A stretch of 64,000 nt of DNA from Lamellibrachia columna (Eukaryota; Annelida; Polychaeta; Sabellida; Siboglinidae): the NCBI GenBank assembly GCA_963662155.1, contig OY759261.1, positions 8,130,229-8,194,228 on the forward strand, given 5' to 3'. Position 1 is the first letter of the stretch. Every line of letters starts with the position of its first letter. This document shows positions 1,885 through 48,692 of this stretch, piece by piece. The translations under genes and the position numbers were made by a program. The notes below the pieces were generated by a model. The model was not told the DNA's origin, ran no database searches, and was given only the letters and a program-made list of their open reading frames with translations.

Positions 1885-1921
<37 letters not shown>

Positions 1922-2939: not shown

Positions 2940-3059
2940 GCTTCACAATGACCCACGTGTTGAGGGATGGTTTACAGATTTCTTCAATGGTGACGTGGAG
3001 ATACCGAGGATTCTACGGAAGCATCTCCTTTCCACTGTAACCATCTTCCTTTGTAGTTC
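2940..3059 (-). pseudogene. LINE RT fragment, RRCFRRILGIS segment
   Basis: From 3059 downwards one frame reads ELQRKMVTVERRCFRRILGIS, followed after a frame change by HVTIEEI (2974-2997). In related LINE proteins the order is ACESWTLTAEL, QRR, CFRRILGIS, HVTNEEV, so the fragment is in the right place. The stretch just upstream, normally holding the LYACESWT motif, is missing at about 3060: the sequence jumps from DKNIAMKS straight to ELQRKM. That missing piece appears instead inside the 72-bp units of the neighbouring satellite. An open frame on the plus strand at 2929-3162 is antisense to this relic. Confidence 0.88.
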
Positions 3060-3414
3060 ATTTGTGACTTCATTGCGATGTTTTTGTCCCTCCAAATTGG
3101 TTTCAGTTTCAGTATTTGTGCAGACCTTGCAAGGATTTCAGTCTTGGATCCCTCGTCACTGATGATGGCCCCGACGTATATAAAACTGTTTCACTGTTTC
3201 GCGTTCTTGTCCATTGGCAGTTATGCTTGATCTATTTGTATTACTGCTGTTTGCCATTATCTTGGTTTTCCATGCCTGGCTGATGTTTCGTCCAGTCGGT
3301 TCACCAGGTTGACGAGTTCTTCTTCCTCTCCAGCCAAACCGTCGATGTCACCAGCGAACCGAAGGTTGGTGATGGTGCGTCCTCCAATGTTAACTGTGCC
3401 GGTGTGGTCTTCTA
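3060..3414 (-). pseudogene. LINE RT palm motif and linker fragment, catalytic Asp lost
   Basis: From 3414 down: LEDHTGTVNIGGRT, then ITNLRFAGDIDGLAG, EEEELVNLVNRLDETSARHG, KTKIMANSSN, IISDEGSK, LKPIWRDKNIAMKS. LRFAGDID corresponds to the LRFADDID palm box. The first catalytic Asp codon is GGT rather than GAT or GAC (3350-3352), so this copy could not polymerise. A deletion of roughly six codons lies after SARHG, where a MEISAE-like stretch is expected, and there is a frameshift before YVGAIISDEGSK. The first 40 bases (3375-3414) are at the same time RT coding sequence and the first unit of the 40-bp satellite, which proves the origin of the satellite. Confidence 0.93.
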
Positions 3415-4619
3415 GTGCGTCCTCCAATGTTAACTGAGTCGGTGTGGTCGCTTAGTGCGTCCTCCAATGTTAACTGTGTCGGTGTGGTCTTCTAGTGCGT
3501 CCTCCAATGTTAACTGTGCCGGTGTGGTCTTCTAGTGCGTCCTCCAATGTTAATTGTGCCGGTGTAGTCTTCTAGTGCGTCCCCCAATGTTAACTGTGCC
3601 GGTGTGGTCTTCTAGTGCGTCCTCCAATGTTAACTGTGTCGGTATGGTCTTCTAGTGCTTCATCCAATGTTAACTCTGTCGGTATGGTCTTCTAGTACGT
3701 CCTCCAATATTAACTTTGTCGGTGTGGTCGTCTAGTGCGTCCTCCAATGTTAACTGTGTCGGTGTGGTCTTCTAGTGCGTCCTCCAATGTTAACTGTGTC
3801 GGTGTGGTCTTCTAGTGCGTCCTCCAATGTTAACTGTGTCGGTGTGGTGTTCTAGTGCGTCCTCCAATGTTAACTGTGCCGGCGGGGTCTTCTAGTGCGT
3901 ACTCCAATGTTAACTGTGCCTGTGTGGTCTTCTAGTGCGTCCTCCAATGTTAACTGTGCCGGAGTGGTCTTCTAGTGCGTCCTCCAATGTTAACTGTGGC
4001 GGTGTGGTCTTCTAGTGCGTCCTCCAATGTTAACTGTGTCGGTTTGGTCTTCTAGTGCGTCCTCCAATGTTAACTCTGCCGGTGTGGTCTTCTAGTGCGT
4101 CCTCCTATGTTAACTGTGCCGGTGCCGTCTTCTAGTGCGTCCGCCAATGTTAACTGTGTCCATGATTCACATGCATACAGGGAGATGAAAAGGACCAGTA
4201 ATTCTAGTGCGCCCTCCAATGTTAACTGTGCCGGTGTGGTCTTCTAGTGCGTCCTCCAATGTTAACTGTGTCGGTGTGGTCTTCTAGTGCGTCCTCCAAT
4301 GTTAACTGTGTCGGTTTGGTCTTCTAGCACGTCCTCCAATGTTAATTGTGTCGGTGTGGTCTTCTAGTGCGTCCTCCAATGTTAACTGTGCCGGTGGGGT
4401 ATTCTAGTGCGTCCTCCAATGTTAACTGTGCCTGTGTGGTCTTCTAGTGCGTCCTCCAATGTTAACTGTGCCTGTGTGGTCTTCTAGTGCGTCCTCCAAT
4501 GTTAAATGTGCCGGTGTGGTCTTCTAGTGCGTCCTCCAATGTTACCTGTGCCGGTGTGGTCTTCTAGTGCGTCCTCCAATGTTAACTGTGCCGGTGTGGT
4601 CTTCTAGTGATTCCTCCAA

Positions 4620-6560
4620 TGTTAACTGTGTCGGTGTGGTCTTCTAGTGCGTCCTCCAATGTTAACTGTGTCGGTGTGGTGTTCTAGTGCGTCCTCCAAT
4701 GTTAACTGTGCCTGTGTGGTCTTCTAGTGATTCCTTCAATGTTAACTGTGTCGGTGTGGTCTTCTAGTGCGTCCTCCAATGTTAACTGTGTCGGTGTGGT
4801 GTTCTAGTGCGTCCTCCAATGTTAACTGTGCCGGTGTGGTCTTCTAGTGATTCCTCCAATGTTAACTGTGTCGGTGTGGTCTTCTAGTGCGTCCTCCAAT
4901 GTTAACTGTATCAGTTTGGTCTTCTAGTGCGTCCTCCAATGTTAACTCTGCCGGTGTGGTCTTCTAGTGCGTCCTCTAATGTTAACTGTGCCGGTGTGGT
5001 CTTCTAGTGCGTCCGCCAATGTTAACTGTGTCCATGATTCACATGCATACAGGGAGATGAAAAGGACCAGTAATTATAGTGCGTCCTCCAATGTTAACTG
5101 TGTCGGTGTGGTCTTCTAGTGCGTCCTCCAATGTTAACTGTGTCGGTGTGGTCTTCTAGTGCGTCCTCCAATGTTAACTGTGTCGGTGTGATCTTCTAGT
5201 GCGTCCTCCAATGTTAACTGTGCCGGTGTGGTCTTCTAGTGCGTCCTCCAATGTTAACTGTGTCGGTGTGGTCTTCTAGTGCGTCCTCCAATGTTAACTG
5301 TATCGGTGTGGTCTTCTAGTGCGTCCTCCAATGTTAAATGTGTCCATGATTCACATGCATAAAGGGAGATGAAAAGGACCAGTAATTCTAGTGCGTCCTC
5401 CAATGTTAACTGTGTCGGTGTGGTCTTCTAGTGCGTCCTCCAATGTTAACTGTGTCGGTGTGGTCTACTAGTACGTCCTCCAATGTTAACTGTGTCGGTG
5501 TGGTCGTCTAGTGCGTCCTCCAATGTTAACTGTGTCGGTGTGATCTTCTAGTGCATCCTCCAATGTTAACTGTGCCGGTGTGGTCTTCTAGTGCGTCCTC
5601 CAATGTTAACTGTGTCGGTGTGGTGTTCTAGTGCGTCCTCCAATGTTAACTGTGCCTGTGTGGTCTTCTAGTGATTCCTTCAATGTTAACTGTGTCGGTG
5701 TGGTCTTCTAGTGCGTCCTCCAATGTTAACTGTGTCGGTGTGGTGTTCTAGTGCGTCCTCCAATGTTAACTGTGCCGGTGTGGTCTTCTAGTGATTCCTC
5801 CAATGTTAACTGTGTCGGTGTGGTCTTCTAGTGCGTCCTCCAATGTTAACTGTATCAGTTTGGTCTTCTAGTGCGTCCTCCAATGTTAACTCTGCCGGTG
5901 TGGTCTTCTAGTGCGTCCTCTAATGTTAACTGTGCCGGTGTGGTCTTCTAGTGCGTCCGCCAATGTTAACTGTGTCCATGATTCACATGCATACAGGGAG
6001 ATGAAAAGGACCAGTAATTATAGTGCGTCCTCCAATGTTAACTGTGTCGGTGTGGTCTTCTAGTGCGTCCTCCAATGTTAACTGTGTCGGTGTGGTCTTC
6101 TAGTGCGTCCTCCAATGTTAACTGTGTCGGTGTGATCTTCTAGTGGGTCCTCCAATGTTAACTGTGCCGGTGTGGTCTTCTAGTGCGTCCTCCAATGTTA
6201 ACTGTGTCGGTGTGGTCTTCTAGTGCGTCCTCCAATGTTAACTGTGTCGGTGTGGTCTTCTAGTGCGTCCTCCAATGTTAAATGTGTCCATGATTCACAT
6301 GCATAAAGGGAGATGAAAAGGACCAGTAATTCTAGTGCGTCCTCCAATGTTAACTGTGTCGGTGTGGTCTTCTAGTGCGTCCTCCAATGTTAACTGTGTC
6401 GGTGTGGTCTACTAGTACGTCCTCCAATGTTAACTGTGTCGGTGTGGTCGTCTAGTGCGTCCTCCAATGTTAACTGTGTCGGTGTGATCTTCTAGTGCAT
6501 CCTCCAATGTTAACTGTGCCGGTGTGGTCTTCTAGTTCGTCCTCCAATGTTAACTGTGTC
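4620..6560. repeat. 944-bp block duplicated in tandem inside the 40-bp satellite
   Basis: Rare variants recur at an offset of 944 bases: GTGATTCCTTCAATG at about 4729 and 5673, TGTATCAGTTTGG, the AATTATAGTG-marked insert, and the composite units 5033/5977 and 5345/6289. The offset equals 20 ordinary plus two 72-bp units. The copies differ at a few positions, for example TGTATCGG near 5291 against TGTGTCGG near 6241. Confidence 0.85.
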
Positions 6561-9500
6561 GGTGTGGTCTTCTAGTGCGTCCTCCAATGTTAACTGTGTC
6601 GGTGTGGTCTTCTAGTGCGTCCTCCAATGTTAACTGTGTCGGTGTGGTCTTCTAGTGCGTCCTCCAATGTTAACTGTGCCGGCGGGGTCTTCTAGTGAGT
6701 CCTCCAATGTTAACTGTGCCGGTGTGGTCTTCTAGTGCGTCCTCCAATGTTAACTGTGGCGGTGTGGTCTTCTAGTGCGTCCTCCAATGTTAACTGTGAC
6801 GGTGTGGTCTTCTAGTGCGTCCTCCAATGTTAACTGTGCCGGTTTGGTCTTCTAGTGCGTCCTCCAATGTTAACTGTGCCGGTGTGGTCTTCTAGTGCGT
6901 GCTCCAATGTTAACTGTGCCGGTGTGGTCTTCTAGTGCGTCCTCCAATGTTAACTGTGCCGGTGTGGTCTTCTAGTGCGTTCTCCAATGTTAACTGTGTC
7001 GGAGTAGTCTTCTATTGCATCCTCCAGTGTTAACTGTGTCGGTGTGGTCTTCTAGTACGTCCTCCAATGTTAACTGTGTCCATGATTCACATGCATACAG
7101 GGAGATGAAAAGGACCAGTAATTCTAGTGCGTCCTCCAATGTTAACTGTGTCGGTGTGGTCTTCTAGTGCGTCCTCCAATGTTAACTGTGTCGGTGTGAT
7201 CTTCTAGTGCGTCCTCCAATGTTAACTGTGCCGGTGTGGTCTTCTAATGCGTCCTCCAATGTTAACTGTGTCGGTGTGGTCTTCTAGTGCGTCCTCCAAT
7301 GTTAACTGTGCCGGTGTGGTCTTCTAGTGCGTCCTCCAATGTTAAATGTGTCCATGATTCACATGCATACAGGGAGATGAAAAGGACCAGTAATTATAGT
7401 GCGTCCTCCAATGTTAACTGTGTCGGTGTGGTCGTCTAGTGCGTCCTCCAATGTTAACTGTGTCGGTGTGATCTTCTAGTGCGTCCTCCAATGTTAACTG
7501 TGCCGGTGTGGTCTTCTAGTGCGTCCTCCAATGTTAACTGTGTCGGTGTGGTCTTCTAGTGCGTCCTCCAATGTTAACTGTGTCGGTGTGGTCTTCTAGT
7601 GCGTCCTCCAATGTTAACTGTGTCGGTGTGGTCTTCTAGTGCGTCCTCCAATGTTAACTGTGCCGGCGGGGTTTTCTAGTGAGTCCTCCAATGTTAACTG
7701 TGCCGGTGTGGTCTTCTAGTGCGTCCTCCAATGTTAACTGTGTCGGTGTGGTCTTCTAGTGGGTCCTCCAATGTTAACTGTGTCGGTGTGGTCTTCTAGT
7801 GCGTCCTCCAATGTTAACTGTGTCGGTGTGATCTTCTAGTGCGTCCTCCAATGTTAACTGTGCCGGTGTGGTCTTCTAGTGCGTCCTCCAATGTTAACTG
7901 TGTCGGTGTGGTCTTCTAGTGCGTCCTCCAATGTTAACTGTGTCGGTGTGGTCTTCTAGTGCGTCCTCCAATGTTAAATGTGTCCATGATTCACATGCAT
8001 ACAGGGAGATGAAAAGGACCAGTAATTCTAGTGTGTCCTCCAATGTTAACTGTGTCGGTGTGGTCTTCTAGTGCGTCCTCCAATGTTAACTGTGTCGGTG
8101 TGGTCTACTAGTACGTCCTCCAATGTTAACTGTGTCGGTGTGGTCGTCTAGTGCGTCCTCCAATGTTAACTGTGTCGGTGTGATCTTCTAGTGCATCCTC
8201 CAATGTTAACTGTGCCGGTGTGGTCTTCTAGTGCGTCCTCCAATGTTAACTGTGTCGGTGTGGTCTTCTAGTGCGTCCTCCAATGTTAACTGTGTCGGTG
8301 TGGTCTTCTAGTGCGTCCTCCAATGTTAACTGTGTCGGTGTGGTCTTCTAATGCGTCCTCCAATGTTAACTGTGTCGGTGTGGTCTTCTAGTGCGTCCTC
8401 CAATGTTAACTGTATCAGTTTGGTCTTCTAGTGCGTCCTCCAATGTTAACTCTGCCGGTGTGGTCTTCTAGTGCGTCCTCCAATGTTAACTGTATCAGTT
8501 TGGTCTTCTAGTGCGTCCTCCAATGTTAACTCTGCCGGTGTGGTCTTCTAGTGCGTCCTCTAATGTTAACTGTGCCGGTGTGGTCTTCTAGTGCGTCCGC
8601 CAATGTTAACTGTGTCCATGATTCACATGCATACAGGGAGATGAAAAGGACCAGTAATTATAGTGCGTCCTCCAATGTTAACTGTGTCGGTGTGGTCTTC
8701 TAGTGCGTCCTCCAATGTTAACTGTGTCGGTGTGGTCTTCTAGTGCGTCCTCCAATGTTAACTGTGTCGGTGTGATCTTCTAGTGGGTCCTCCAATGTTA
8801 ACTGTGCCGGTGTGGTCTTCTAGTGCGTCCTCCAATGTTAACTGTGTCGGTGTGGTCTTCTAGTGCGTCCTCCAATGTTAACTGTGTCGGTGTGGTCTTC
8901 TAGTGCGTCCTCCAATGTTAAATGTGTCCATGATTCACATGCATAAAGGGAGATGAAAAGGACCAGTAATTCTAGTGCGTCCTCCAATGTTAACTGTGTC
9001 GGTGTGGTCTTCTAGTGCGTCCTCCAATGTTAACTGTGTCGGTGTGGTCTACTAGTACGTCCTCCAATGTTAACTGTGTCGGTGTGGTCGTCTAGTGCGT
9101 CCTCCAATGTTAACTGTGTCGGTGTGATCTTCTAGTGCATCCTCCAATGTTAACTGTGCCGGTGTGGTCTTCTAGTTCGTCCTCCAATGTTAACTGTGTC
9201 GGTGTGGTCTTCTAGTGCGTCCTCCAATGTTAACTCTGTCGGTGTGGTCTTCTAGTGCGTCCTCCAATGTTAACTGTGTCGGTGTGGTCTTCTAGTGCGT
9301 CCTCCAATGTTAACTGTGCCGGCGGGGTCTTCTAGTGAGTCCTCCAATGTTAACTGTGCCGGTGTGGTCTTCTAGTGCGTCCTCCAATGTTAACTGTGGC
9401 GGTGTGGTCTTCTAGTGCGTCCTCCAATGTTAACTGTGACGGTGTGGTCTTCTAGTGCGTCCTCCAATGTTAACTGTGCCGGTTTGGTCTTCTAGTGCGT

Positions 9501-9600
9501 CCTCCAATGTTAACTGTGCCGGTGTGGTCTTCTAGTGCGTGCTCCAATGTTAACTGTGCCGGTGTGGTCTTCTAGTGCGTCCTCCAATGTTAACTGTGTC
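5870..9600. repeat. 2,640-bp offset duplication inside the satellite
   Basis: The segment at about 5870-6960 recurs at 8510-9600 with the same variant order: inserts 5977/8617 and 6289/8929, the CCGGCGGGG unit, the GTGAGTCC unit, the TGTGGCGG and TGTGACGG pair and the GTGCTCC unit. 2,640 equals 57 ordinary plus five 72-bp units. The DNA between (about 6960-8280) is itself copied 2,792 bases further on (7081/9873, 7353/10145, 7985/10777). Confidence 0.85.
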
Positions 9601-9869
9601 GGTGTGGTCTTCTAGTGGGTCCTCCAATGTAAACTGTACCGGTGTGGTCTTCTAGTGCGTCCTCCAATGTTAAATGTGTCCATGATTCACATGCATACAG
9701 GGAGATGAAAAGGACCAGTAATTCTAGTGCGTCCTCCAATGTTAACTGTGCCGGTGTGGTCTTCTAGTGCGTTCTCCAATGTTAACTGTGTCGGAGTAGT
9801 CTTCTATTGCATCCTCCAGTGTTAACTGTGTCGGTGTGGTCTTCTAGTACGTCCTCCAATGTTAACTGT

Positions 9870-12800
9870 GTCCATGATTCACATGCATACAGGGAGATGA
9901 AAAGGACCAGTAATTCTAGTGCGTCCTCCAATGTTAACTGTGTCGGTGTGGTCTTCTAGTGCGTCCTCCAATGTTAACTGTGTCGGTGTGATCTTCTAGT
10001 GCGTCCTCCAATGTTAACTGTGCCGGTGTGGTCTTCTAATGCGTCCTCCAATGTTAACTGTGTCGGTGTGGTCTTCTAGTGCGTCCTCCAATGTTAACTG
10101 TGCCGGTGTGGTCTTCTAGTGCGTCCTCCAATGTTAAATGTGTCCATGATTCACATGCATACAGGGAGATGAAAAGGACCAGTAATTATAGTGCGTCCTC
10201 CAATGTTAACTGTGTCGGTGTGGTCGTCTAGTGCGTCCTCCAATGTTAACTGTGTCGGTGTGATCTTCTAGTGCGTCCTCCAATGTTAACTGTGCCGGTG
10301 TGGTCTTCTAGTGCGTCCTCCAATGTTAACTGTGTCGGTGTGGTCTTCTAGTGCGTCCTCCAATGTTAACTGTGTCGGTGTGGTCTTCTAGTGCGTCCTC
10401 CAATGTTAACTGTGTCGGTGTGGTCTTCTAGTGCGTCCTCCAATGTTAACTGTGCCGGCGGGGTTTTCTAGTGAGTCCTCCAATGTTAACTGTGCCGGTG
10501 TGGTCTTCTAGTGCGTCCTCCAATGTTAACTGTGTCGGTGTGGTCTTCTAGTGGGTCCTCCAATGTTAACTGTGTCGGTGTGGTCTTCTAGTGCGTCCTC
10601 CAATGTTAACTGTGTCGGTGTGATCTTCTAGTGCGTCCTCCAATGTTAACTGTGCCGGTGTGGTCTTCTAGTGCGTCCTCCAATGTTAACTGTGTCGGTG
10701 TGGTCTTCTAGTGCGTCCTCCAATGTTAACTGTGTCGGTGTGGTCTTCTAGTGCGTCCTCCAATGTTAAATGTGTCCATGATTCACATGCATACAGGGAG
10801 ATGAAAAGGACCAGTAATTCTAGTGTGTCCTCCAATGTTAACTGTGTCGGTGTGGTCTTCTAGTGCGTCCTCCAATGTTAACTGTGTCGGTGTGGTCTAC
10901 TAGTACGTCCTCCAATGTTAACTGTGTCGGTGTGGTCGTCTAGTGCGTCCTCCAATGTTAACTGTGTCGGTGTGATCTTCTAGTGCATCCTCCAATGTTA
11001 ACTGTGCCGGTGTGGTCTTCTAGTGCGTCCTCCAATGTTAACTGTGTCGGTGTGGTCTTCTAGTGCGTCCTCCAATGTTAACTGTGTCGGTGTGGTCTTC
11101 TAGTGCGTCCTCCAATGTTAACTGTGTCGGTGTGGTCTTCTAGTGCGTCCTCCAATGTTAACTGTGCCGGCGGGGTCTTCTAGTGAGTCCTCCAATGTTA
11201 ACTGTGCCGGTGTGGTCTTCTAGTGCGTCCTCCAATGTTAACTGTGGCGGTGTGGTCTTCTAGTGCGTCCTCCAATGTTAACTGTGACGGTGTGGTCTTC
11301 TAGTGCGTCCTCCAATGTTAACTGTGTCGGTGTGGTCTTCTAGTGCGTCCTCCAATGTTAACTGTGCCGGTGTGGTCTTCTAGTGCGTCCTCCAATGTTA
11401 ACTTTGCCGGTGTGGTCTTCTAGTGCGTGCTCCAATGTTAACTGTGCCGGTGTGGTCTTCTAGTGCGTCCTCCAATGTTAACTGTGTCGGTGTGGTCTTC
11501 TAGTGCGTCCTCCAATGTAAACTGTACCGGTGTGGTCTTCTAGTGCGTCCTCCAATGTTAAATGTGTCCATGATTCACATGCATACAGGGAGATGAAAAG
11601 GACCAGTAATTCTAGTGCGTCCTCCAATGTTAACTGTGCCGGTGTGGTCTTCTAGTGCGTTCTCCAATGTTAACTGTGTCGGTGTAGTTTTCTAATGCAT
11701 CCTCCAGTGTTAACTGTGTCGGTGTGGTCTTCTAGTACGTCCTCCAATGTTAACTGTGTCCATGATTCACATGCATACAGGGAGATGAAAAGGACCAGTA
11801 ATTCTAGTGCGTCCTCCAATGTTAACTGTGTCGGTGGGGTCTTCTAGTGCGTCCTCCAATGTTAACTGTATCGGTGTGGTCTTCTAGTGCGTCCTCCAAT
11901 GTTAACTGTGTCGGTGTGATCTTCTAGTGCGTCCTCCAATGTTAACTGTGCCGGTGTGGTCTTCTAGTGCGTCCTCCAATGTTAACTGTGTCGGTGTGGT
12001 CTTCTAGTGCGTCCTCCAATGTTAACTGTGTCGGTGTGGTCTTCTAGTGCGTCCTCCAATGTTAAATGTGTCATGATTCACATGCATACAGGGAGATGAA
12101 AAGGACCAGTAATTCTAGTGCGTCCTCCAATGTTAACTGTGTAGGTGTGGTCGTCTAGTGCGTCCTCCAATGTTAACTGTGTCGGTGTGATCTTCTAGTG
12201 CGTCCTCCAATTTTAACTGTGCAGGTGTGGTCTTCTAGTGCGTCCTCCAATGTTAACTGTGTCGGTGTGGTCTTCTAGTGCGTCCTCCAATGTTAACTGT
12301 GTCGGTGTGGTCTTCTAGTGCGTCCTCCAATGTTAACTATGTCGGTTTGGTCTTCTAGTGCGTCCTCCAATGTTAATTGTGCCGGCGGGGTTTTCTAGTG
12401 AGTCCTCCAATGTTAACTGTGACGGTGTGGTCTTCTAGTGCGTCCTCCAATGTTATCTGTGTCCATGATTCACATGCATACAGGGAGATGAAAAGGACCA
12501 GTAATTCTAGTGCGTCCTCCAATGTTAACTGTGTCGGTGTGGTCTTCTAGTGCGTCCTCCAATGTTAACTGTGTCGGTGTGATCTTCTAGTGCGTCCTCC
12601 AATGTTAACTGTGCCGGTGTGGTCTTCTAATGCGTCCTCCAATGTTAACTGTGTCGGTGTGGTCTTCTAGTGCGTCCTCCAATGTTAACTGTGCCGGTGT
12701 GGTCTTCTAGTGCGTCCTCCAATGTTAAATGTGTCCATGATTCACATGCATACAGGGAGATGAAAAGGACCAGTAATTATAGTGCGTCCTCCAATGTTAA

Positions 12801-15051
12801 CTGTGTCGGTGTGGTCGTCTAGTGCGTCCTCCAATGTTAACTGTGTCGGTGTGATCTTCTAGTGCGTCCTCCAATGTTAACTGTGCCGGTGTGGTCTTCT
12901 AGTGCGTCCTCCAATGTTAACTGTGTCGGTGTGGTCTTCTAGTGCGTCCTCCAATGTTAACTGTGTCGGTGTGGTCTTCTAGTGCGTCCTCCAATGTTAA
13001 CTGTGTCGGTGTGGTCTTCTAGTGCGTCCTCCAATGTTAACTGTGCCGGCGGGGTTTTCTAGTGAGTCCTCCAATGTTAACTGTGCCGGTGTGGTCTTCT
13101 AGTGCGTCCTCCAATGTTAACTGTGTCGGTGTGGTCTTCTAGTGGGTCCTCCAATGTTAACTGTGTCGGTGTGGTCTTCTAGTGCGTCCTCCAATGTTAA
13201 CTGTGTCGGTGTGATCTTCTAGTGCGTCCTCCAATGTTAACTGTGCCGGTGTGGTCTTCTAGTGCGTCCTCCAATGTTAACTGTGTCGGTGTGGTCTTCT
13301 AGTGCGTCCTCCAATGTTAACTGTGTCGGTGTGGTCTTCTAGTGCGTCCTCCAATGTTAAATGTGTCCATGATTCACATGCATACAGGGAGATGAAAAGG
13401 ACCAGTAATTCTAGTGTGTCCTCCAATGTTAACTGTGTCGGTGTGGTCTTCTAGTGCGTCCTCCAATGTTAACTGTGTCGGTGTGGTCTACTAGTACGTC
13501 CTCCAATGTTAACTGTGTCGGTGTGGTCGTCTAGTGCGTCCTCCAATGTTAACTGTGTCGGTGTGATCTTCTAGTGCATCCTCCAATGTTAACTGTGCCG
13601 GTGTGGTCTTCTAGTGCGTCCTCCAATGTTAACTGTGTCGGTGTGGTCTTCTAGTGCGTCCTCCAATGTTAACTGTGTCGGTGTGGTCTTCTAGTGCGTC
13701 CTCCAATGTTAACTGTGTCGGTGTGGTCTTCTAGTGCGTCCTCCAATGTTAACTGTGCCGGCGGGGTCTTCTAGTGAGTCCTCCAATGTTAACTGTGCCG
13801 GTGTGGTCTTCTAGTGCGTCCTCCAATGTTAACTGTGGCGGTGTGGTCTTCTAGTGCGTCCTCCAATGTTAACTGTGACGGTGTGGTCTTCTAGTGCGTC
13901 CTCCAATGTTAACTGTGTCGGTGTGGTCTTCTAGTGCGTCCTCCAATGTTAACTGTGCCGGTGTGGTCTTCTAGTGCGTCCTCCAATGTTAACTTTGCCG
14001 GTGTGGTCTTCTAGTGCGTGCTCCAATGTTAACTGTGCCGGTGTGGTCTTCTAGTGCGTCCTCCAATGTTAACTGTGTCGGTGTGGTCTTCTAGTGCGTC
14101 CTCCAATGTAAACTGTACCGGTGTGGTCTTCTAGTGCGTCCTCCAATGTTAAATGTGTCCATGATTCACATGCATACAGGGAGATGAAAAGGACCAGTAA
14201 TTCTAGTGCGTCCTCCAATGTTAACTGTGCCGGTGTGGTCTTCTAGTGCGTTCTCCAATGTTAACTGTGTCGGTGTAGTTTTCTAATGCATCCTCCAGTG
14301 TTAACTGTGTCGGTGTGGTCTTCTAGTACGTCCTCCAATGTTAACTGTGTCCATGATTCACATGCATACAGGGAGATGAAAAGGACCAGTAATTCTAGTG
14401 CGTCCTCCAATGTTAACTGTGTCGGTGGGGTCTTCTAGTGCGTCCTCCAATGTTAACTGTATCGGTGTGGTCTTCTAGTGCGTCCTCCAATGTTAACTGT
14501 GTCGGTGTGATCTTCTAGTGCGTCCTCCAATGTTAACTGTGCCGGTGTGGTCTTCTAGTGCGTCCTCCAATGTTAACTGTGTCGGTGTGGTCTTCTAGTG
14601 CGTCCTCCAATGTTAACTGTGTCGGTGTGGTCTTCTAGTGCGTCCTCCAATGTTAAATGTGTCATGATTCACATGCATACAGGGAGATGAAAAGGACCAG
14701 TAATTCTAGTGCGTCCTCCAATGTTAACTGTGTAGGTGTGGTCGTCTAGTGCGTCCTCCAATGTTAACTGTGTCGGTGTGATCTTCTAGTGCGTCCTCCA
14801 ATTTTAACTGTGCAGGTGTGGTCTTCTAGTGCGTCCTCCAATGTTAACTGTGTCGGTGTGGTCTTCTAGTGCGTCCTCCAATGTTAACTGTGTCGGTGTG
14901 GTCTTCTAGTGCGTCCTCCAATGTTAACTATGTCGGTTTGGTCTTCTAGTGCGTCCTCCAATGTTAATTGTGCCGGCGGGGTTTTCTAGTGAGTCCTCCA
15001 ATGTTAACTGTGACGGTGTGGTCTTCTAGTGCGTCCTCCAATGTTATCTGT
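9870..15051. repeat. 2,591-bp tandem duplication with a mapped junction
   Basis: Copies 9870-12460 and 12461-15051 share every marker I compared, including a one-base deletion in the composite units at 12072 and 14663 and the variants AATTTTAACTGTGCAGG and CTTTGCCGG. The junction near 12455-12463 joins an ordinary unit (GTTATCTGTGTC) to the second half of a composite unit (CATGATTCAC). At 15051 the same GTTATCTGTGTC continues as an ordinary unit. Crossing-over therefore occurred in the shared TGTGTC. Confidence 0.9.
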
Positions 15052-17143: not shown

Positions 17144-17194
17144 CAAACTGTACCGGTGTGGTCTTCTAGTGCGTCCTCCAATGTTAAATGTGTC

Positions 17195-36300: not shown

Positions 36301-39300
36301 CTAGTGCGTCCTCCAAGGTTAACTGTGCCGGTGTGGTCTTCTAGTGCGTCCTCCAATGTTAACTGTGCCGGTGTGGTCTTCTAGTGCGTCCTCCAATGTT
36401 AACTGTGTCGGTGTGGTCTTCTATTGCGTCCTCCAGTGTTAACTGTGTCGGTGTGGTCTTCTAGTACGTCCTCCAATGTTAATTGTGTCGGTGTGGTCTT
36501 CTAGTGCGTCCTCCAATGTTAACTGTGCCTGTGTGGTCTTCTAGTGCGTCCTCCAATGTTAACTGTGCCTGTGTGGTCTTCTAGTGCGTCCTCCAATGTT
36601 AACTGTGCCGGTGTGGTCTTCTAGTGCGTCCTCCAATGTTAACTGTGCCGGTGTGGTCTTCTAGTGCGTCCTCCAATATTAACTGTGCCGGTGTGGTCTT
36701 CTAGTGCGTCCTCCAATGTTAACTGTGCCGGTGTTGTCTTCTAGTGCGTCCTCCAATGTTAACTGTGCCGGTGTGGTCTTCTAGTGCGTGCTCCAATGTT
36801 AACTGTGCCGGTGTGGTCTTGTAGTGCGTCCTCCAATGTTAACTGTGCCGGTGTGGTCTTCTAGTGCGTCCTCCAATGTTAACTGTGCCGGTGTGGTCTT
36901 CTAGTGCGTCCTCCAATGTTAACTGTGTCGGTGTGGTCTTTTATGGCATCCTCCAGTGTTAACTGTGTTGGTGTGGTCTTTTAGTGCGTCCTCCAAAGTT
37001 AACTGTGCCGGTGTGGTCTTCTAGTGCGTCCTCCAATGTTAACTGTGTCGGTGTGGTCTTCTAGTGCGTCCTCCAATGTTAAATGTGTCCATGATTCACA
37101 TGCATACAGGGAGATGAAAAGGACCAGTAATTCTAGTGCGTCCTCCAATGTTAACTGTGTCGGTGTGGTCGTCTAGTGCGTCCTCCAATGTTAACTGTGT
37201 CGGTGTGATCTTCTAGTGCGTCCTCCAATGTTAACTGTGCCGGTGTGGTCTTCTAGTGCGTCCTCCAATGTTAACTGTCTCGGTGTGGTCTTCTAGTGCG
37301 TCCTCCAATGTTAACTATGTCGGTGTGGTCTTCTAGTGTGTCCTCCAATGTTAACTATGTCGGTGTGGTCTTCTAGTGCGTCCTCCAATGTTAACTGTGC
37401 CGGCGGGGTCTTCTAGTGAGTCCTCCAATGTTAACTGTGCCGGTGTGGTCTTCTAGTGCGTCCTCCAATGTTAACTGTGGCGGTGTGGTCTTCTAGTGCG
37501 TCCTCCAATGTTAACTGTGACGGTGTGGTCTTCTAGTGCGTCCTCCAATGTTATCTGTGTCGGTGTGGTCTTCTAGTGCGTCCTCCAATGTTAACTGTGC
37601 CGGTGTTGTCTTCTAGTGCGTCCTCCAATGTTAACTGTGCCGGTGTGGTCTTCTAGTGCGTGCTCCAATGTTAACTGTGCCGGTGTGGTCTTGTAGTGCA
37701 TCCTCCAATGTTAACTGTGCCGGTGTGGTCTTCTAGTGCGTCCTCCAATGTTAACTGTGCCGGTGTGGTCTTCTAGTGCGTCCTCCAATGTTAACTGTGT
37801 CGGTGTGGTCTTCTAGTACGTCCTCCAATGTTAATTGTGTCGGTGTGGTCTTCTAGTGCGTCCTCCAATGTTAACTGTGCCGGTGGGGTTTTCTAGTGCG
37901 TCCTCCAATGTTAACTGTGCCTGTGTGGTCTTCTAGTGCGTCCTCCAATGTTAACTGTGCCTGTGTGGTCTTCTAGTGCGTCCTCCAATGTTAACTGTGC
38001 CGGTGTGGTCTTCTAGTGCGTCTTCCAATGTTAACTGTGCCGGTGTGGTCTTCTAGTGCGTCCTCCAATGTTAACGGTGCCGGTGTGGTCTTCTAGTGCG
38101 ACCTCCAATGTTAACTGTGCCGGTGTGATATTATAGTGCGTCCTCCAATGTTATCTGTGTCGGTGTGGTCTTCTAGTGCGTCCTCCAATGTTATCTGTGT
38201 CGGTGTGGTCTTCTAGTGCGTCCTCCAATGTTAACTGTGCCGGTGTGGTCTTCTAGTGCGTCATCCAATGTTAACTGTGCCGGTGTGGTCTTCTAGTGCG
38301 TGCTCCAATGTTAACTGTGCCGGTGTGGTCTTGTAGTGCGTCCTCCAATGTTAACTGTGCCGGTGTGGTCTTCTAGTGCGTCCTCCAATGTTAACTGTGC
38401 CGGTGTGGTCTTCTAGTGCGTCCTCCAATGTTAACTGTGTCGGTGTGGTCTTCTATTGCGTCCTCCAGTGTTAACTGTGTCGGTGTGGTCTTCAAGTACG
38501 TCCTCCAATATTAACTGTGCCGGTGTGGTCTTCTAGTGCGTCCTCCAATGTTAACTGTGTCGGTGTGGTCTTCTATTGCGTCCTCCAGTGTTAACTGTGT
38601 CGGTGTGGTCTTCTAGTACGTCCTCCAATGTTAATTGTGTCGGTGTGGTCTTCTAGTGCGTCCTCCAATGTTAACTGTGTCGGTGTGGTCTTCTATGGCA
38701 TCCTCCAGTGTTAACTGTGTCGGTGTGGTCTTTTAGTGCGTCCTCCAAAGTTAACTGTGCCGGTGTGGTCTTCTAGTGCGTCCTCCAATGTTAATTGTGT
38801 CGGTGTGGTCTTCTAGTGCGTCCTCCAATGTTAACTGTGTCGGTGTGGTCTTCTAGTGCGTACTCCAATGTTAACTGTGTCGGTGTGGTCTTCTAGTACG
38901 TCCTCCAATGTTAATTGTGTCGGTGTGGTCTTCTAGTGCGTCCTCCAATGTTAACTGTGCCGGTGGGGTCTTCTAGTGCGTCCTCCAATGTTAACTGTGC
39001 CTGTGTGGTCTTCTAGTGCGTCCTCCAATGTTAACTATGTCGGTGTGGTCTTCTAGTGCGTCCTCCAATGTTAACTGTGTCGGTGTGTTCTTCTAGTGCG
39101 TCCTCCAATGTTAACTGTGCCGGTGTGGTCTTCTAGTGCGTCCTCCAATGTTAACTGTGTCGGTGTGGTCTTCTAGTGCGTCCTCCAATGTTAACTGTGT
39201 CGGTGTGGTCTTCTAGTGCGTCCTCCAATGTTAAATGTGTCCATGATTCACATGCATACAGGGAGATGAAAAGGACCAGTAATTCTAGTGCGTCCTCCAA

Positions 39301-39324
39301 GGTTAACTGTGCCGGTGTGGTCTT
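33357..39324. repeat. 2,984-bp tandem duplication inside the satellite
   Basis: Copies 33357-36340 and 36341-39324 match in all variants I checked, including paired TCTAGTGTGTCC units, GTGATATTATAG, TTCAAGTACG and composite units 34106/37090 and 36258/39242. Differences are few: GTTCCGG near 35774 against GTGCCGG near 38757, and GTGTGATC near 36104 against GTGTGTTC near 39088. 2,984 equals 71 ordinary plus two 72-bp units. The high identity indicates a recent event. Confidence 0.88.
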
Positions 39325-41915
39325 CTAGTGCGTCCTCCAATGTTAACTGTGCCGGTGTGGTCTTCTAGTGCGTCCTCCAATGTTAACTGTGCCGGTGTGG
39401 TCTTCTAGTGCGTCCTCCAATGTTAACTTTGCCGGTGTGGTCTTCTAGTGCGTCCTCCAATGTTAACTGTGCCGGTGTGGTCTTGTAGTGCGTCCTACAA
39501 TGTTAACTGTGCCGGTGTGGTCTTCTAGTGCGTCCTCCAATGTTAACTGTGCCGGTGTGGTCTTCTAGTGCGTCCTCCAATGTTAACTGTGTCGGTGTGG
39601 TCTTTTATGGCATCCTCCAGTGTTAACTGTGTCGGTGTGGTCTTTTAGTGCGTCCTCCAAAGTTAACTGTGCCGGTGTGGTCTTCTAGTGCGTCCTCCAA
39701 TGTTAACTGTGTCGGTGTGGTCTTCTAGTGCGTCCTCCAATGTTAAATGTGTCCATGATTCACATGCATACAGGGAGATGAAAAGGACCAGTAATTCTAG
39801 TGCGTCCTCCAATGTTAACTGTGTCGGTGTGGTCGTCTAGTGCGTCCTCCAATGTTAACTGTGTCGGTGTGATCTTCTAGTGCGTACTCCAATGTTAACT
39901 GTGCCGGTGTGGTCTTCTAGTGCGTCCTCCAATGTTAACTGTCTCGGTGTGGTCTTCTAGTGCGTCCTCCAATGTTAACTATGTCGGTGTGGTCTTCTAG
40001 TGTGTCCTCCAATGTTAACTATGTCGGTGTGGTCTTCTAGTGCGTCCTCCAATGTTAACTGTGCCGGCGGGGTCTTCTAGTGAGTCCTCCAATGTTAACT
40101 GTGCCGGTGTGGTCTTCTAGTGCGTCCTCCAATGTTAACTGTGGCGGTGTGGTCTTCTAGTGCGTCCTCCAATGTTAACTGTGACGGTGTGGTCTTCTAG
40201 TGCGTCCTCCAATGTTATCTGTGTCGGTGTGGTCTTCTAGTGCGTCCTCCAATGTTAACTGTGCCGGTGTTGTCTTCTAGTGCGTCCTCCAATGTTAACT
40301 GTGTCGGTGTGGTCTTCTATGGCATCCTCCAGTGTTAACTGTGTCGGTGTGGTCTTTTAGTGCGTCCTCCAAAGTTAACTGTGCCGGTGTGGTCTTCTAG
40401 TGCGTCCTCCAATGTTAATTGTGTCGGTGTGGTCTTCTAGTGCGTCCTCCAATGTTAACTGTGTCGGTGTGGTCTTCTAGTGCGTACTCCAATGTTAACT
40501 GTGTCGGTGTGGTCTTCTAGTACGTCCTCCAATGTTAATTGTGTCGGTGTGGTCTTCTAGTGCGTCCTCCAATGTTAACTGTGCCGGTGGGGTCTTCTAG
40601 TGCGTCCTCCAATGTTAACTGTGCCTGTGTGGTCTTCTAGTGCGTCCTCCAATGTTAACTATGTCGGTGTGGTCTTCTAGTGCGTCCTCCAATGTTAACT
40701 GTGTCGGTGTGATCTTCTAGTGCGTCCTCCAATGTTAACTGTGCCGGTGTGGTCTTCTAGTGCGTCCTCCAATGTTAACTGTGTCGGTGTGGTCTTCTAG
40801 TGCGTCCTCCAATGTTAACTGTGTCGGTGTGGTCTTCTAGTGCGTCCTCCAATGTTAAATGTGTCCATGATTCACATGCATACAGGGAGATGAAAAGGAC
40901 CAGTAATTCTAGTGCGTCCTCCAAGGTTAACTGTGCCGGTGTGGTCTTCTAGTGCGTCCTCCAATGTTAACTGTGCCGGTGTGGTCTTCTAGTGCGTCCT
41001 CCAATGTTAACTGTGCCGGTGTGGTCTTCTAGTGCGTCCTCCAATGTTAACTTTGCCGGTGTGGTCTTCTAGTGCGTCCTCCAATGTTAACTGTGCCGGT
41101 GTGGTCTTGTAGTGCGTCCTACAATGTTAACTGTGCCGGTGTGGTCTTCTAGTGCGTCCTCCAATGTTAACTGTGCCGGTGTGGTCTTCTAGTGCGTCCT
41201 CCAATGTTAACTGTGTCGGTGTGGTCTTTTATGGCATCCTCCAGTGTTAACTGTGTCGGTGTGGTCTTTTAGTGCGTCCTCCAAAGTTAACTGTGCCGGT
41301 GTGGTCTTCTAGTGCGTCCTCCAATGTTAACTGTGTCGGTGTGGTCTTCTAGTGCGTCCTCCAATGTTAAATGTGTCCATGATTCACATGCATACAGGGA
41401 GATGAAAAGGACCAGTAATTCTAGTGCGTCCTCCAATGTTAACTGTGTCGGTGTGGTCGTCTAGTGCGTCCTCCAATGTTAACTGTGTCGGTGTGATCTT
41501 CTAGTGCGTACTCCAATGTTAACTGTGCCGGTGTGGTCTTCTAGTGCGTCCTCCAATGTTAACTGTCTCGGTGTGGTCTTCTAGTGCGTCCTCCAATGTT
41601 AACTATGTCGGTGTGGTCTTCTAGTGTGTCCTCCAATGTTAACTATGTCGGTGTGGTCTTCTAGTGCGTCCTCCAATGTTAACTGTGCCGGCGGGGTCTT
41701 CTAGTGAGTCCTCCAATGTTAACTGTGCCGGTGTGGTCTTCTAGTGCGTCCTCCAATGTTAACTGTGGCGGTGTGGTCTTCTAGTGCGTCCTCCAATGTT
41801 AACTGTGACGGTGTGGTCTTCTAGTGCGTCCTCCAATGTTATCTGTGTCGGTGTGGTCTTCTAGTGCGTCCTCCAATGTTAACTGTGCCGGTGTTGTCTT
41901 CTAGTGCGTCCTCCA
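38660..41915. repeat. 1,624-bp tandem duplication inside the satellite
   Basis: Composite units 39242/40866 and 39754/41378 and the variants CTTTGCCGG, CCTACAATG, GCGTACTCC and GTCTCGG recur at 1,624 bases, which equals 37 ordinary plus two 72-bp units. The first copy overlaps the end of the 2,984-bp duplication, so this event is younger. Confidence 0.85.
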
Positions 41916-44900
41916 ATGTTAACTGTGCCGGTGTGGTCTTCTAGTGCGTGCTCCAATGTTAACTGTGCCGGTGTGGTCTTGTAGTGCGTCCTCCAATGTT
42001 AACTGTGCCGGTGTGGTCTTCTAGTGCGTCCTCCAATGTTAACTGTGCCGGTGTGGTCTTCTATTTTTTCCTCCAATGTTAACTGTGTCGGTGTGGTCTT
42101 CTAGTACGTCCTCCAATGTTAATTGTGTCGGTGTGGTCTTCTAGTGCGTCCTCCAATGTTAACTGTGCCGGTGGGGTCTTCTAGTGCGTCCTCCAATGTT
42201 AACTGTGCCTGTGTGGTCTTCTAGTGCGTCCTCCAATGTTAACTGTGCCTGTGTGGTCTTCTAGTGCGTCCTCCAATGTTAACTGTGCCGGTGTGGTCTT
42301 CTAGTGCGTCTTCCAATGTTAACTGTGCCGGTGTGGTCTTCTAGTGCGTCCTCCAATGTTAACTGTGCCGGTGTGGTCTTCTAGTGCGTCCTCCAATGTT
42401 AACTGTGCCTGTGTGGTCTTCTAGTGCGTCCTCCAATGTTAACTGTGTCCATGATTCACATGCATACAGGGAGATGAAAAGGACCAATAATTCTAGTGCG
42501 TCCTCCAATGTTAACTGTGCCGGTGTGGTCTTCTAGTGCGTCCTCCAATGTTAACTGTGTCGGTGTGGTCTTCTATTGCGTCCTCCAGTGTTAACTGTGT
42601 CGGTGTGGTCTTCTAGTACGTCCTCCAATGTTAATTGTGTCGGTGTGGTCTTCTAGTGCGTCCTCCAATGTTAACTGTGCCGGTGGGGTCTTCTAGTGCG
42701 TCCTCCAATGTTAACTGTGCCTGTGTGGTCTTCTAGTGCGTCCTCCAATGTTAACTGTGCCTGTGTGGTCTTCTAGTGCGTCCTCCAATGTTAACTGTGC
42801 CGGTGTGGTCTTCTAGTGCGTCCTCCAATGTTAACTGTGCCTGTGTGGTCTTCTAGTGCGTCCTCCAATGTTAACTGTGCCGGTGTGGTCTTCTAGTGCG
42901 TCCTCCAATGTTAACTGTGCCGGTGTGGTCTTCTAGTGCGTCCTCCAATGTTAACTGTGTCGGTGTGGTCTTCTAGTGCGTCCTCCAATGCTAACTGTGT
43001 CGGTGTGGTCTTCTAGTGCGTCCTCCAATGTTAACTCTATCGGTGTGGTCTTCTAGTGCGTCCTGCAATGTTAACTGTGTCGGTGTGGTCTTTTATGGCA
43101 TCCTCCAGTGTTAACTGTGTCGGTGTGGTCTTTTAGTGCGTCCTCCAAAGTTAACTGTGCCGGTGTGGTCTTCTAGTGCGTCCTCCAATGTTAACTGTGT
43201 CGGTGTGGTCTTCTAGTGCGTCCTCCAATGTTAAATGTGTCCATGATTCACATGCATACAGGGAGATGAAAAGGACCAGTAATTCTAGTGCGTCCTCCAA
43301 TGTTAACTGTGTCGGTGTGGTCGTCTAGTGCGTCCTCCAATGTTAACTGTGTCGGTGTGATCTTCTAGTGCGTCCTCCAATGTTAACTGTGCCGGTGTGG
43401 TCTTCTATTGCGTCCTCCAATATTAACTGTGTCGGTGTGGTTTTCTAGTGCGTCCTCCAATGTTAACTATGTCGGTGTGGTCTTCTAGTGCGTCCTCCAA
43501 TGTTAACTATGTCGGTGTGGTCTTCTAGTGCGTCCTCCAATGTTAATTGTGCCGGCGGGGTCTTCTAGTGAGTCCTCCAATGTTAACTGTGCCGGTGTGG
43601 TCTTCTAGTGCGTCCTCCAATGTTAACTGTGGCGGTGTGGTCTTCTAGTGCGTCCTCCAATGTTAACTGTGACGGTGTGGTCTTCTAGTGCGTCCTCCAA
43701 TGTTATCTGTGTCGGTGTGGTCTTCTAGTGCGTCCTCCAATGTTAACTGTGCCGGTGTTGTCTTCTAGTGCGTCCTCCAATGTTAACTGTTCCGGTGTGG
43801 TCTTCTAGTGCGTGCTCCAATGTTAACTGTGCCGGTGTGGTCTTGTAGTGCGTCCTCCAAAGTTAACTGTGCCGGTGTGGTCTTCTAGTGCGTCCTCCAA
43901 TGTTAACTGTGCCGGTGTGGTCTTCTAGTGCGTCCTCCAATGTTAACTGTGTCGGTGTGGTCTTCTAGTACGTCCTCCAATGTTAATTGTGTCGGTGTGG
44001 TCTTCTAGTGCGTCCTCCAATGTTAACTGTGCCGGTGGGGTCTTCTAGTGCGTCCTCCAATGTTAACTGTGCCTGTGTGGTCTTCTAGTGCGTCCTCCAA
44101 TGTTAACTGTGCCTGTGTGGTCTTCTAGTGCGTCCTCCAATGTTAACTGTGCCGGTGTGGTCTTCTAGTGCGTCTTCCAATGTTAACTGTGCCGGTGTGG
44201 TCTTCTAGTGCGTCCTCCAATGTTAACTGTGCCGGTGTGGTCTTCTAGTGCGTCCTCCAATGTTAACTGTGCCGGTGTGATATTCTAGTGCGTCCTCCAA
44301 TGTTAACTGTGTCGGTGTGGTCTTCTAGTGCGTCCTCCAATGTTATATGTGTCGGTGTGGTCTTCTAGTGCGTCCTCCAATGTTAACTGTGCCGGTGTGG
44401 TCTTCTAGTGCGTCCTCCAATGTTAACTGTGCCGGTGTGGTCTTCTAGTGCGTGCTCCAATGTTAACTGTGCCGGTGTGGTCTTGTAGTGCGTCCTCCAA
44501 TGTTAACTGTGCCGGTGTGGTCTTCTAGTGCGTCCTCCAATGTTAACTGTGCCGGTGTGGTCTTCTAGTGCGTCCTCCAATGTTAACTGTGTCGGTGTGG
44601 TCTTCTATTGCGTCCTCCAGTGTTAACTGTGTCGGTGTGGTCTTCAAGTACGTCCTCCAATGTTAACTGTGCCGGTGTGGTCTTCTAGTGCGTCCTCCAA
44701 TGTTAACTGTGTCGGTGTGGTCTTCTATTGCGTCCTCCAGTGTTAACTGTGTCGGTGTGGTCTTCTAGTACGTCCTCCAATGTTAATTGTGTCGGTGTGG
44801 TCTTCTAGTGCGTCCTCCAATGTTAACTGTGTCGGTGTGGTCTTCTATGGCATCCTCCAGTGTTAACTGTGTCGGTGTGGTCTTTTAGTGCGTCCTCCAA

Positions 44901-47900
44901 AGTTAACTGTGCCGGTGTGGTCTTCTAGTGCGTCCTCCAATGTTAACTGTGTCGGTGTGGTCTTCTAGTGCGTCCTCCAATGTTAACTGTGTCGGTGTGG
45001 TCTTCTAGTGCGTCCTCCAATGTTAACTGTGTCGGTGTGGTCTTCTAGTACGTCCTCCAATGTTAATTGTGTCGGTGTGGTCTTCTAGTGCGTCCTCCAA
45101 TGTTAACTGTGCCGGTGGAGTCTTCTAGTGCGTCCTCCAATGTTAACTGTGCCTGTGTGGTCTTCTAGTGCGTCCTCCAATGTTAACTATGTCGGTGTGG
45201 TCTTCTAGTGCGTCCTCCAATGTTAACTGTGTCGGTGTGATCTTCTAGTGCGTCCTCCAATGTTACCTGTGCCGGTGTGGTCTTCTAGTGCGTCCTCCAA
45301 TGTTAACTGTGTCGGTGTGGTCTTCTAGTGCGTCCTCCAATGTTAACTGTGTCGGTGTGGTCTTCTAGTGCGTCCTCCAATGTTAAATGTGTCCATGATT
45401 CACAAGCATACAGGGAGATGAAAAGGACCAGTAATTCTAGTGCGTCCTCCAAGGTTAACTGTGTCGGTGTGGTCGTCTAGTGCGTCCTCCAATGTTAACT
45501 GTGTCGGTGTGATCTTCTAGTGCGTCCTCCAATGTTAACTGTGCCGGTGTGGTCTTCTAGTGCGTCCTCCAATGTTAACTATGTCGGTGTGGTCTTCTAG
45601 TGCGTCCTCCAATGTTAACTATGTCGGTTTGGTCTTCTAGTGCGTCCTCCAATGTTAACTATGTCGGTGTGGTCTTCTAATGCGTCCTCCAATGTTAACT
45701 GTGCCGGCGGGGTCTTCTAGTGAGTCCTCCAATGTTAACTGTGCCGGTGTGGTCTTCTAGTGCGTCCTCCAATGTTAACTGTGGCGGTGTGGTCTTCTGG
45801 TGCGTCCTCCAATGTTAACTGTGACGGTGTGGTCTTCTAGTGCGTCCTCCAATGTTATCTGTGTCGGTGTGGTCTTCTAGTGCGTCCTCCAATGTTAACT
45901 GTGCCGGTGTGGTCTTCTAGTGCGTCCTCCAATGTTAACTGTGCCGGTGTGGTCTTCTAGTGCGTGCTCCAATGTTAACTGTGCCGGTGTGGTCTTGTAG
46001 TGCGTCCTCCAATGTTAACTGTGTCGGTGTGGTCTTCAAGTACGTCCTCCAATGTTAACTGTGCCGGTGTGGTCTTCTAGTGCGTCCTCCAATGTTAACT
46101 GTGTCGGTGTGGTCTTCTATTGCGTCCTCCAGTGTTAACTGTGTCGGTGTGGTCTTCTAGTACGTCCTCCAATGTTAATTGTGTCGGTGTGGTCTTCTAG
46201 TGCGTCCTCCAATGTTAACTGTGTCGGTGTGGTCTTCTATGGCATCCTCCAGTGTTAACTGTGTCGGTGTGGTCTTTTAGTGCGTCCTCCAAAGTTAACT
46301 GTGCCGGTGTGGTCTTCTAGTGCGTCCTCCAATGTTAACTGTGTCGGTGTGGTGTTCTAGTGCGTCCTCCAATGTTAACTATGTCGGTGTGGTCTTCTAG
46401 TGCGTCCTCCAATGTTAACTATGTCGGTGTGGTCTTCTAGTGCGTCCTCCAATGTTAACTGTGCCGGCGGGGTCTTCTGGTGAGTCCTCCAATGTTAACT
46501 GTGTCGGTGTGGTCTTCTAGTGCGTCCTCCAATGTTAACTGTGGCGGTGTGGTCTTCTAGTGCGTCCTCCAATGTTAACTGTGACGGTGTGGTCTTCTAA
46601 TGCGTCCTCCAATGTTATCTGTGTCGGTGTGGTCTTCTAGTGCGTCCTCCAATGTTAACTGTGCCGGTGTGGTCTTCTAGTGCGTCCTCCAATGTTAACT
46701 GTGCCGGTGTGGTCTTCTAGTGCGTGCTCCAATGTTAACTGTGCCGGTGTGGTCTTGTAGTGCGTCCTCCAATGTTAACTGTGCCGGTGTGGTCTTCTAG
46801 TGCGTCCTCCAATGTTAACTGTGCCGGTGTGGTCTTCTAGTGCGTCCTCCAATGTTAACTGTGTCGGTGTGGTCTTCTATTGCGTCCTCCAGTGTTAACT
46901 GTGTCGGTGTGGTCTTCAAGTACGTCCTCCAATGTTATCTGTGCCGGTGTGGTCTTCTAGTGCGTCCTCCAATGTTAACTGTGTCGGTGTGGTCTTCTAT
47001 TGCGTCCTCCAGTGTTAACTGTGTCGGTGTGGTCTTCTAGTACGTCCTCCAATGTTAATTGTGTCGGTGTGGTCTTCTAGTGCGTCCTCCAATGTTAACT
47101 GTGTCGGTGTGGTCTTCTATGGCATCCTCCAGTGTTAACTGTGTCGGTGTGGTCTTTTAGTGCGTCCTCCAAAGTTAACTGTGCCGGTGTGGTCTTCTAG
47201 TGCGTCCTCCAATGTTAACTGTGTCGGTGTGGTCTTCTAGTGCATCCTCCAATGTTAACTGTGTCGGTGTGGTCTTCTAGTGCGTCCTCCAATGTTAACT
47301 GTGTCGGTGTGGTCTTCTAGTGCGTCCTCCAATGTTAACTGTGCCGGTGGGGTCTTCTAGTGCGTCCTCCAATGTTAACTGTGCCTGTGTGGTCTTCTAG
47401 TGAGTCCTCCAATGTTAACTGTGTCGGTGTGGTCTTCTAGTGCGTCCTCCAATGTTAACTGTGGCGGTGTGGTCTTCTAGTGCGTCCTCCAATGTTAACT
47501 GTGAAGGTGTGGTCTTCTAGTGCGTCCTCCAATGTTATCTGTGTCGGTGTGGTCTTCTAGTGCGTCCTCCAATGTTAACTCTGCCGGTGTGGTCTTCTAG
47601 TGCGTCCTCCAATGTTAACTGTGCCGGTGTGGTCTTCTAGTGCGTGCTCCAATGTTAACTGTGCCGGTGTGATCTTTTAGTGCGTCCTCCAATGTTAACT
47701 GTGCCGGTGTGGTCTTCTAGTGCGTCCTCCAATGTTAACTGTGTCGGTGTGGTCTTCTAGTGCGTCCTCCAATGTTAACTGTGTCGGTGTGGTCTTCTAG
47801 TGCGTCCTCCAATGTTAAATGTGTCCATGATTCACATGCATACAGGGAGATGAAAAGGACCAGAAATTCTAGTGCGTCCTCCAATGTTAACTGTGTCGGT

Positions 47901-48692
47901 GTGGTCGTCTAGTGCGTCCTCCAATGTTAACTGTGTCGGTGTGATCTTCTAGTGCGTCCTCCAATGTTAACTGTGCCGGTGTGGTCTTCTAGTGCGTCCT
48001 CCAATGTTAACTGTGTCGGTGTGGTGTTCTAGTGCGTCCTCCAATGTTAACTATGTCGGTGTGGTCTTCTAGTGCGTCCTCCAATGTTAACTATGTCGGT
48101 GTGGTCTTCTAGTGCGTCCTCCAATGTTAACTGTGCCGGCGGGGTCTTCTGGTGAGTCCTCCAATGTTAACTGTGTCGGTGTGGTCTTCTAGTGCGTCCT
48201 CCAATGTTAACTGTGGCGGTGTTGTCTTCTAGTGCGTCCTCCAATGATAACTGTGACGGTGTGGTCTTCTAATGCGTCCTCCAATGTTATCTGTGTCGGT
48301 GTGGTCTTCTAGTGCGTCCTCCAATGTTAACTGTTCCGGTGTGGTCTTCTAGTGCGTCCTTCAATGTTAACTGTGCCGGTGTGGTCTTCTAGTGCGTGCT
48401 CCAATGTTAACTGTGCCGGTGTGGTCTTGTAGTGCGTCCTCCAATGTTAACTGTGCCGGTGTGGTCTTCTAGTGCGTCCTCCAATGTTAACTGTGCCGGT
48501 GTGGTCTTCTAGTGCGTCCTCCAATGTTAACTGTGTCGGTGTGGTCTTCTATTGCGTCCTCCAGTGTTAACTGTGTCGGTGTGGTCTTCAAGTACGTCCT
48601 CCAATGTTAACTGTGCCGGTGTGGTCTTCTATTGCGTCCTCCAGTGTTAACTGTGTCGGTGTGGTCTTCTAGTACGTCCTCCAATGTTAATT

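Follow-up and report, generated by a model that had tools for sequence, protein, structure and literature searches.

Within a 64,000-bp stretch of the Lamellibrachia columna genome (GenBank assembly GCA_963662155.1, contig OY759261.1, positions 8,130,229 to 8,194,228 of the forward strand; hereafter the window, in whose coordinates positions are given), a long satellite array with a 40-bp unit is joined at its left edge to the remnant of a transposable element. From its motifs and a preliminary description of the sequence, we take this element to be a long interspersed nuclear element (LINE), that is, a non-long terminal repeat (non-LTR) retrotransposon; palm, thumb and catalytic box are likewise labels that we presume for parts of the remnant. 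The features of the locus are the following (P0160 and similar names are our handles for related proteins).

3375 to 48690, minus strand: 40-bp satellite array (Tandem Repeats Finder (TRF), unit alignment, core orientation, LINE match against shuffles)
3375 to 3414, minus strand: edge unit, sharing the frame of the LINE palm and ending at GGACGCAC (translation of the edge)
48672 to 48690, minus strand: truncated last unit forming the right edge, no LINE found beyond (tblastn, unit alignment)
4135 to 4206, minus strand: first of 57 composite units, LLVLFISLYACESWT / ITGPFHLPVCM-stop (unit alignment, LINE protein comparison)
3059 to 3427, minus strand: palm of the LINE reverse transcriptase with the part that follows it, frameshifted and with FAGD in place of FADD, shared in part with the first units of the array (tblastn, protein search, alignment)
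2003 to 3058, minus strand: rest of the LINE C-terminus, frameshifted, containing a 35-bp array (frames compared with P0160)
2117 to 2824, minus strand: 35-bp minisatellite within the coding sequence of the LINE C-terminus, 20 nearly identical units and a further 8 bp, with GACAGGAA at both bounds (TRF, lag comparison)
1463 to 2002, minus strand: microsatellite of (GTAA) type next to the 3' end of the LINE (TRF)

TRF reported the satellite as a single head-to-tail array of period 40 and 1143.5 copies, spanning 45,316 bp, as the preliminary description had it except that the end lies at 48690 rather than 48692. Cyclic alignment to the array consensus divided it into 1145 units, 1029 of which are exactly 40 bp without insertions or deletions. 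Another 114 pair up as halves of 57 composite units, each about 72 bp long, and the remainder consists of one unit of 41 bp and a 19-bp end piece. The exact units comprise 183 distinct sequences with a mean of 1.46 mismatches to the consensus, and unit position 25 is polymorphic (T 528, C 448, A 30, G 23). A 17-base core of the unit occurs 778 times in the forward direction and never reversed, so that the array has the long, head-to-tail, single-orientation form looked for in a satellite derived from a transposable element. Divergence showed no clear trend along the array (1.11–1.65 mismatches in 12 bins).

On the minus strand the array encodes LEDHTGTVNIGGRT, in the frame of the LINE. From 3427 downward the translation is unbroken (LEDALEDHTGTVNIGGRTITNLRFAGDIDGLAGEEEELVNLVNRLDETSARHG), and the array thus passes in frame into the element, continuing into ITNLRFAGDIDGLAGEEEELVNLVNRLDETSARHG. 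Thereafter shifting frames give IYVGAIISDEGSKTEILARSAQ, LKLKPIWRDKNIAMKSQM, NELQRKMVTVERRCFRRILGIS, SLLTTVKKRKLRWCGHVTRSSGLSKIVLQGTVQGKRRRGRQ and EEWTGKTYSETQALPDNRQD, followed by the (GTAA)-type microsatellite. This uninterrupted reading, together with tblastn matches at the edge, supports the proposal that the LINE directly adjoins the array and shares its frame. The motif LRFAGDID is indeed joined to the rest of a LINE C-terminus, as had been described, but that C-terminus is frameshifted, carries a deletion and is interrupted by the second, 35-bp array. About 22 codons are absent between KSQM and NELQ relative to P0160, and the catalytic box reads FAGD, compared to FADD in the consensus of the relatives. 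With its frameshifts, the missing codons and the altered box, the remnant is dead. FAGD was considered as the mark of a single lineage and dropped, being present in 7 of 208 fetched proteins. Beyond NELQ, tblastn gave one partial match to P0150 at 2767–2928; this part is otherwise presumed from resemblance to be LINE. The microsatellite, 540 bp of TTAC/TACC on the 3' side of the LINE, is possibly a grown LINE tail.

A protein search with the translated edge (64 amino acids), as the preliminary description had suggested, returned 2024 related proteins at E ≤ 1e-3; details given here refer to the 120 that were listed. Alignment of 25 sequences, including that of the window, yielded the consensus MTDALEDHEGTVSIGGRTITNLRFADDIDGL. 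By tblastn, the left edge was matched by all 14 LINE proteins compared (best E value 2.5e-32), and none of the 14 matched to the right of 48690 at E < 1; upstream of the motif, the LINE is represented incompletely in these proteins. All five relatives tested scored above the cut-off for the Pfam domain RVT_1, P0123 barely so, compared to none of five broken pieces from the window. The monomer thus has homology to a transposable element that is also identified apart from the array. When the array consensus was compared with P0160, it scored 68, and the best of 1000 unit shuffles reached 47. The match between array and LINE is therefore not due to chance, and the same comparison ruled out a chance juxtaposition of the two. 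Acquisition of the motif by the LINE from the satellite was also rejected, since the motif occurs in relatives named from a shrimp and a sea slug. We conclude from these comparisons, which agree with the origin in LINE reverse-transcriptase coding sequence first proposed, that the 40-bp unit derives from a LINE of the left-edge kind.

Named relatives were few among those listed: Palaemon carinicauda, Aplysia californica and records labelled Thiolapillus sp. The latter (P0088 and P0160, for example) are eukaryotic-looking LINE fragments under the name of a bacterial symbiont, and probably represent host DNA within a symbiont assembly. An animal source of the sequence is accordingly likely. At the DNA level, pattern searches found no relatives in viral contigs, with none confirmed among 6 and 34 stretches, or in genome contigs, with none confirmed among 239 stretches; phages and plasmids gave none.

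The preliminary description derived the whole array from one 40-bp LINE piece. This holds for the 40-bp unit, but the 57 composite units consist of part of that unit plus a second segment of the same LINE family. One frame of the segment gives LLVLFISLYACESWT, and another gives ITGPFHLPVCM-stop. In the first frame, 11 of 14 residues are identical to LVTSIFLYACESWT of P0160 (score 56, compared to a best of 37 in 1000 shuffles); in the second, the reading equals the ends of P0122 and P0123 (11/11) and of P0013 (10/10), and the end of P0019 is nearly the same. In these four proteins, MTNSSNT continues directly into the ITGPFHLPVCM segment, and we read the junction as a putative internal deletion of the LINE. 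The string MTNS(S/DS)NTITGP is common to five of the 208 fetched proteins, namely these four and P0001, with P0123 representing 11 member sequences; they apparently form one internally deleted, multiplied LINE subfamily.

The same remnant harbors a second tandem array, the 35-bp minisatellite, which is 708 bp long (20 x 35 + 8) and in which 671 of 673 positions are equal at lag 35. It has LINE sequence on both sides and is bounded at both LINE junctions by an 8-bp direct repeat, GACAGGAA, of the 5–10-bp class. If bases are taken as random, eight surplus matching positions would arise at a random joint about once in 10,000 cases. Of the evidence at the locus, this array offers the best guide to how the 40-bp array is likely to have begun.

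For the 40-bp array, the likely counterpart is GGACGCAC, right after which the array ends on the LINE side. Read in the frame of the LINE, the letters of GGACGCAC at the unit joints give D-A, followed by LEDH. Among the 208 fetched proteins, D-A precedes 160 of 180 LEDH motifs, a count that includes 7 from satellite frames; the preceding residue makes this TDA in 134 cases and EDA in 8, seven of these 8 being from satellite frames. Recreation of both codons by chance would occur about once in 512 cases. Occurrence of D-A before LEDH as in the relatives is expected if a second copy of GGACGCAC, exact or almost exact, lies 40 bp upstream in the LINE. The repeat is seen as DNA on one side of the array, and the other side is known only as protein. 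The 40-bp unit is thus likely to be bounded by a short direct repeat like that of the 35-bp array, as far as can be read from the codons at its joints.

On this basis, we favor, with some reserve, an origin of the 40-bp array by slippage or unequal exchange at GGACGCAC repeats in a LINE of the attached kind, followed by growth through unequal crossing-over. Two copies of about GGACGCAC, 40 bp apart in the LINE and the upstream one deduced from protein, would have provided the seed. Slippage or unequal exchange between them would then have produced the first tandem units, which unequal crossing-over may have multiplied, and a break would have removed the LINE part upstream of the array. The array itself is most likely a neutral or selfish recombination product, and we claim no function for it.

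Exact repeats within the array reach lengths of 2598, 2417, 1421 and 1215 bp, at lags of 2591, 2984, 2792 and 1624, respectively. For the rarer unit types, the best lag changes from one third of the array to the next (66, 119 and 75 units). Growth likely proceeded by local, recent, block-wise duplication, as from unequal exchange, although mis-assembly could look alike. At the edges, the 20 units beside the LINE are 50% unique, a level met by 5 of 1010 blocks, and the last 20 units are 10% unique, a level met by 423 of 1010. We read the left edge as old and the right edge as broken.

Several observations weigh against an origin of the array at this LINE copy by the route described above. The comparison of uniqueness at the edges was chosen after seeing the data, and unique units are frequent at 24–33 kb and 42–48 kb too. 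When a 550-bp piece of the LINE was compared with itself at the 41 lags between 20 and 60, 9 lags gave exact matches of 6–7 bp; short direct repeats are plentiful there, and finding one is therefore weaker evidence than it appears. The right edge lacks LINE sequence in the tblastn comparison given above. The target-site duplication around the whole insertion that is looked for after target-primed reverse transcription was not found, just two 6-bp matches being present between 1301–1475 and 48676–48760. The second segment of the composite units is absent from the adjacent remnant, so that separate parts of the LINE family, two in number, are combined in the array, one of them not from the remnant as now preserved. 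Satellite reading frames also occur on other contigs, which are not necessarily of the same species: P0205, P0207 and P0208 lie on a contig of 213,320 bp and P0206 on one of 6,025 bp, and in P0001 and P0013, from a 1,079,492-bp contig, a satellite frame is joined to a LINE palm, in P0001 on both sides.

The last two of these observations would fit a satellite that arose from another copy of the family and only afterwards came to adjoin the remnant, through homologous recombination or conversion in the 40 bp common to both, making the LINE a landing place; the missing second segment equals the ends of the deleted copies P0122 and P0123, and recombination within the shared 40 bp would give an equally seamless join. 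Against this stands indirect evidence. The units match the HTG/HTD subtype of their neighbor: the adjacent LINE reads HTG, and the base of the HND type at unit position 28 was found in 0 of 1029 units, compared to seven LINE-type relatives that carry HND or HNE. In addition, the units adjoining the LINE are unusually private. HTG is not itself private to the remnant, EDHTG being present in 5 of the 208 fetched proteins. We regard a later landing as unlikely, though deserving of weight, and the LINE copy attached here as the likely founder of the array.

A different timing would place the first tandem copies in reverse transcription, with the LINE enzyme stuttering between short repeats near a 5' truncation point and growth following at the DNA level. 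It agrees with the position of the array at the upstream end of a truncated LINE copy with no LINE after it. However, the 35-bp array is internal to the element with LINE on both sides, in P0001 the satellite frame flanks the palm on either side, and no target-site duplication was found; we judge such an origin very improbable. That assembly created the array, or its length, and that the LINE edge lies beside it by chance is scarcely credible: long-read mis-assembly could also produce exact copies as long as 2,598 bp, but this account is opposed by the 183 distinct unit sequences, the in-frame LINE identity beyond 1000 of 1000 shuffles and a LINE–satellite junction on another contig as well.

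With slippage or unequal exchange at short direct repeats as the preferred origin, a broader reading can be put forward tentatively, and with somewhat less than even confidence. One LINE family may be a serial maker of satellites, in which short direct repeats in reverse-transcriptase and C-terminal coding sequence repeatedly seed arrays, here of 40 and 35 bp in one copy and with more at other loci, so that the founder copy, the first private units and a mature 45-kb array would stand side by side. If this is true, the path from coding sequence to satellite is readable at one locus. The first copies of a satellite are seldom visible because arrays tend to erase their own origin; an attached source, a seed that likely set the unit length and a sister array with its seed on both sides mean that the model of birth could be tested in related individuals and species with ordinary sequencing.

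The rarity that the preliminary description attributed to a satellite derived from reverse-transcriptase sequence was overstated, since satellites from the second open reading frame (ORF2) of LINEs and births at direct repeats of 5–10 bp have already been published. According to a review, PROsat (Phodopus, LINE-1), Pvc 20 (harbor seal, LINE-1) and HinfI/SCR1 (chicken, CR1) are likewise tandem repeats related to LINE ORF2 (PMC9659126). In PROsat the similarity is confined to a small region of the monomer, whereas here the whole 40-bp unit is reverse-transcriptase coding sequence; HinfI combines 3' untranslated region (UTR) with partial ORF2, whereas here reverse-transcriptase coding extends throughout and the LINE remnant is still joined in frame (PMC9659126). 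The model of Haber and Louis similarly places minisatellite birth at a motif between direct repeats of 5–10 bp, followed by expansion (PMC6947457, PMC3389668). In a human survey, 7,276 minisatellites and satellites are reported as derived from transposable elements, 300 of them with flanking direct repeats, most often of 7 bp, and known mechanisms account for only 6% of their starts (PMC3389668). Most unexplained repeats in that survey have two units, compared to more than 1,000 units over 45 kb here, and two arrays in one LINE copy (PMC3389668). The maize arrays CRM1TR and CRM4TR are likewise retrotransposon-derived, with illegitimate recombination proposed as their start; their source is LTR/UTR sequence, and short direct repeats for a single-step joint were undetected there (PMC3648361). 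A satellite composed wholly of reverse-transcriptase codons with its source attached was not found among the open-licence papers searched. The kind is already known, here with unusually clear anatomy; what is unusual is how long the array is, that its source is still attached, that two segments are mixed and that one LINE copy contains a pair of arrays.

No RNA families and no tRNAs were found within the window, which has a eukaryotic look and 58,577 of whose 64,000 bases are covered by seven TRF arrays. Near the right edge of the 40-bp array, a 59-bp tandem array occupies 49666–51169 (about 25 copies), and an 88-bp array of 5 copies lies at 51936–52375. A 53-bp satellite of about 186 copies, for which tblastn gave no relation to the LINE proteins, extends from 54234 to 64000 and runs past the end of the window.

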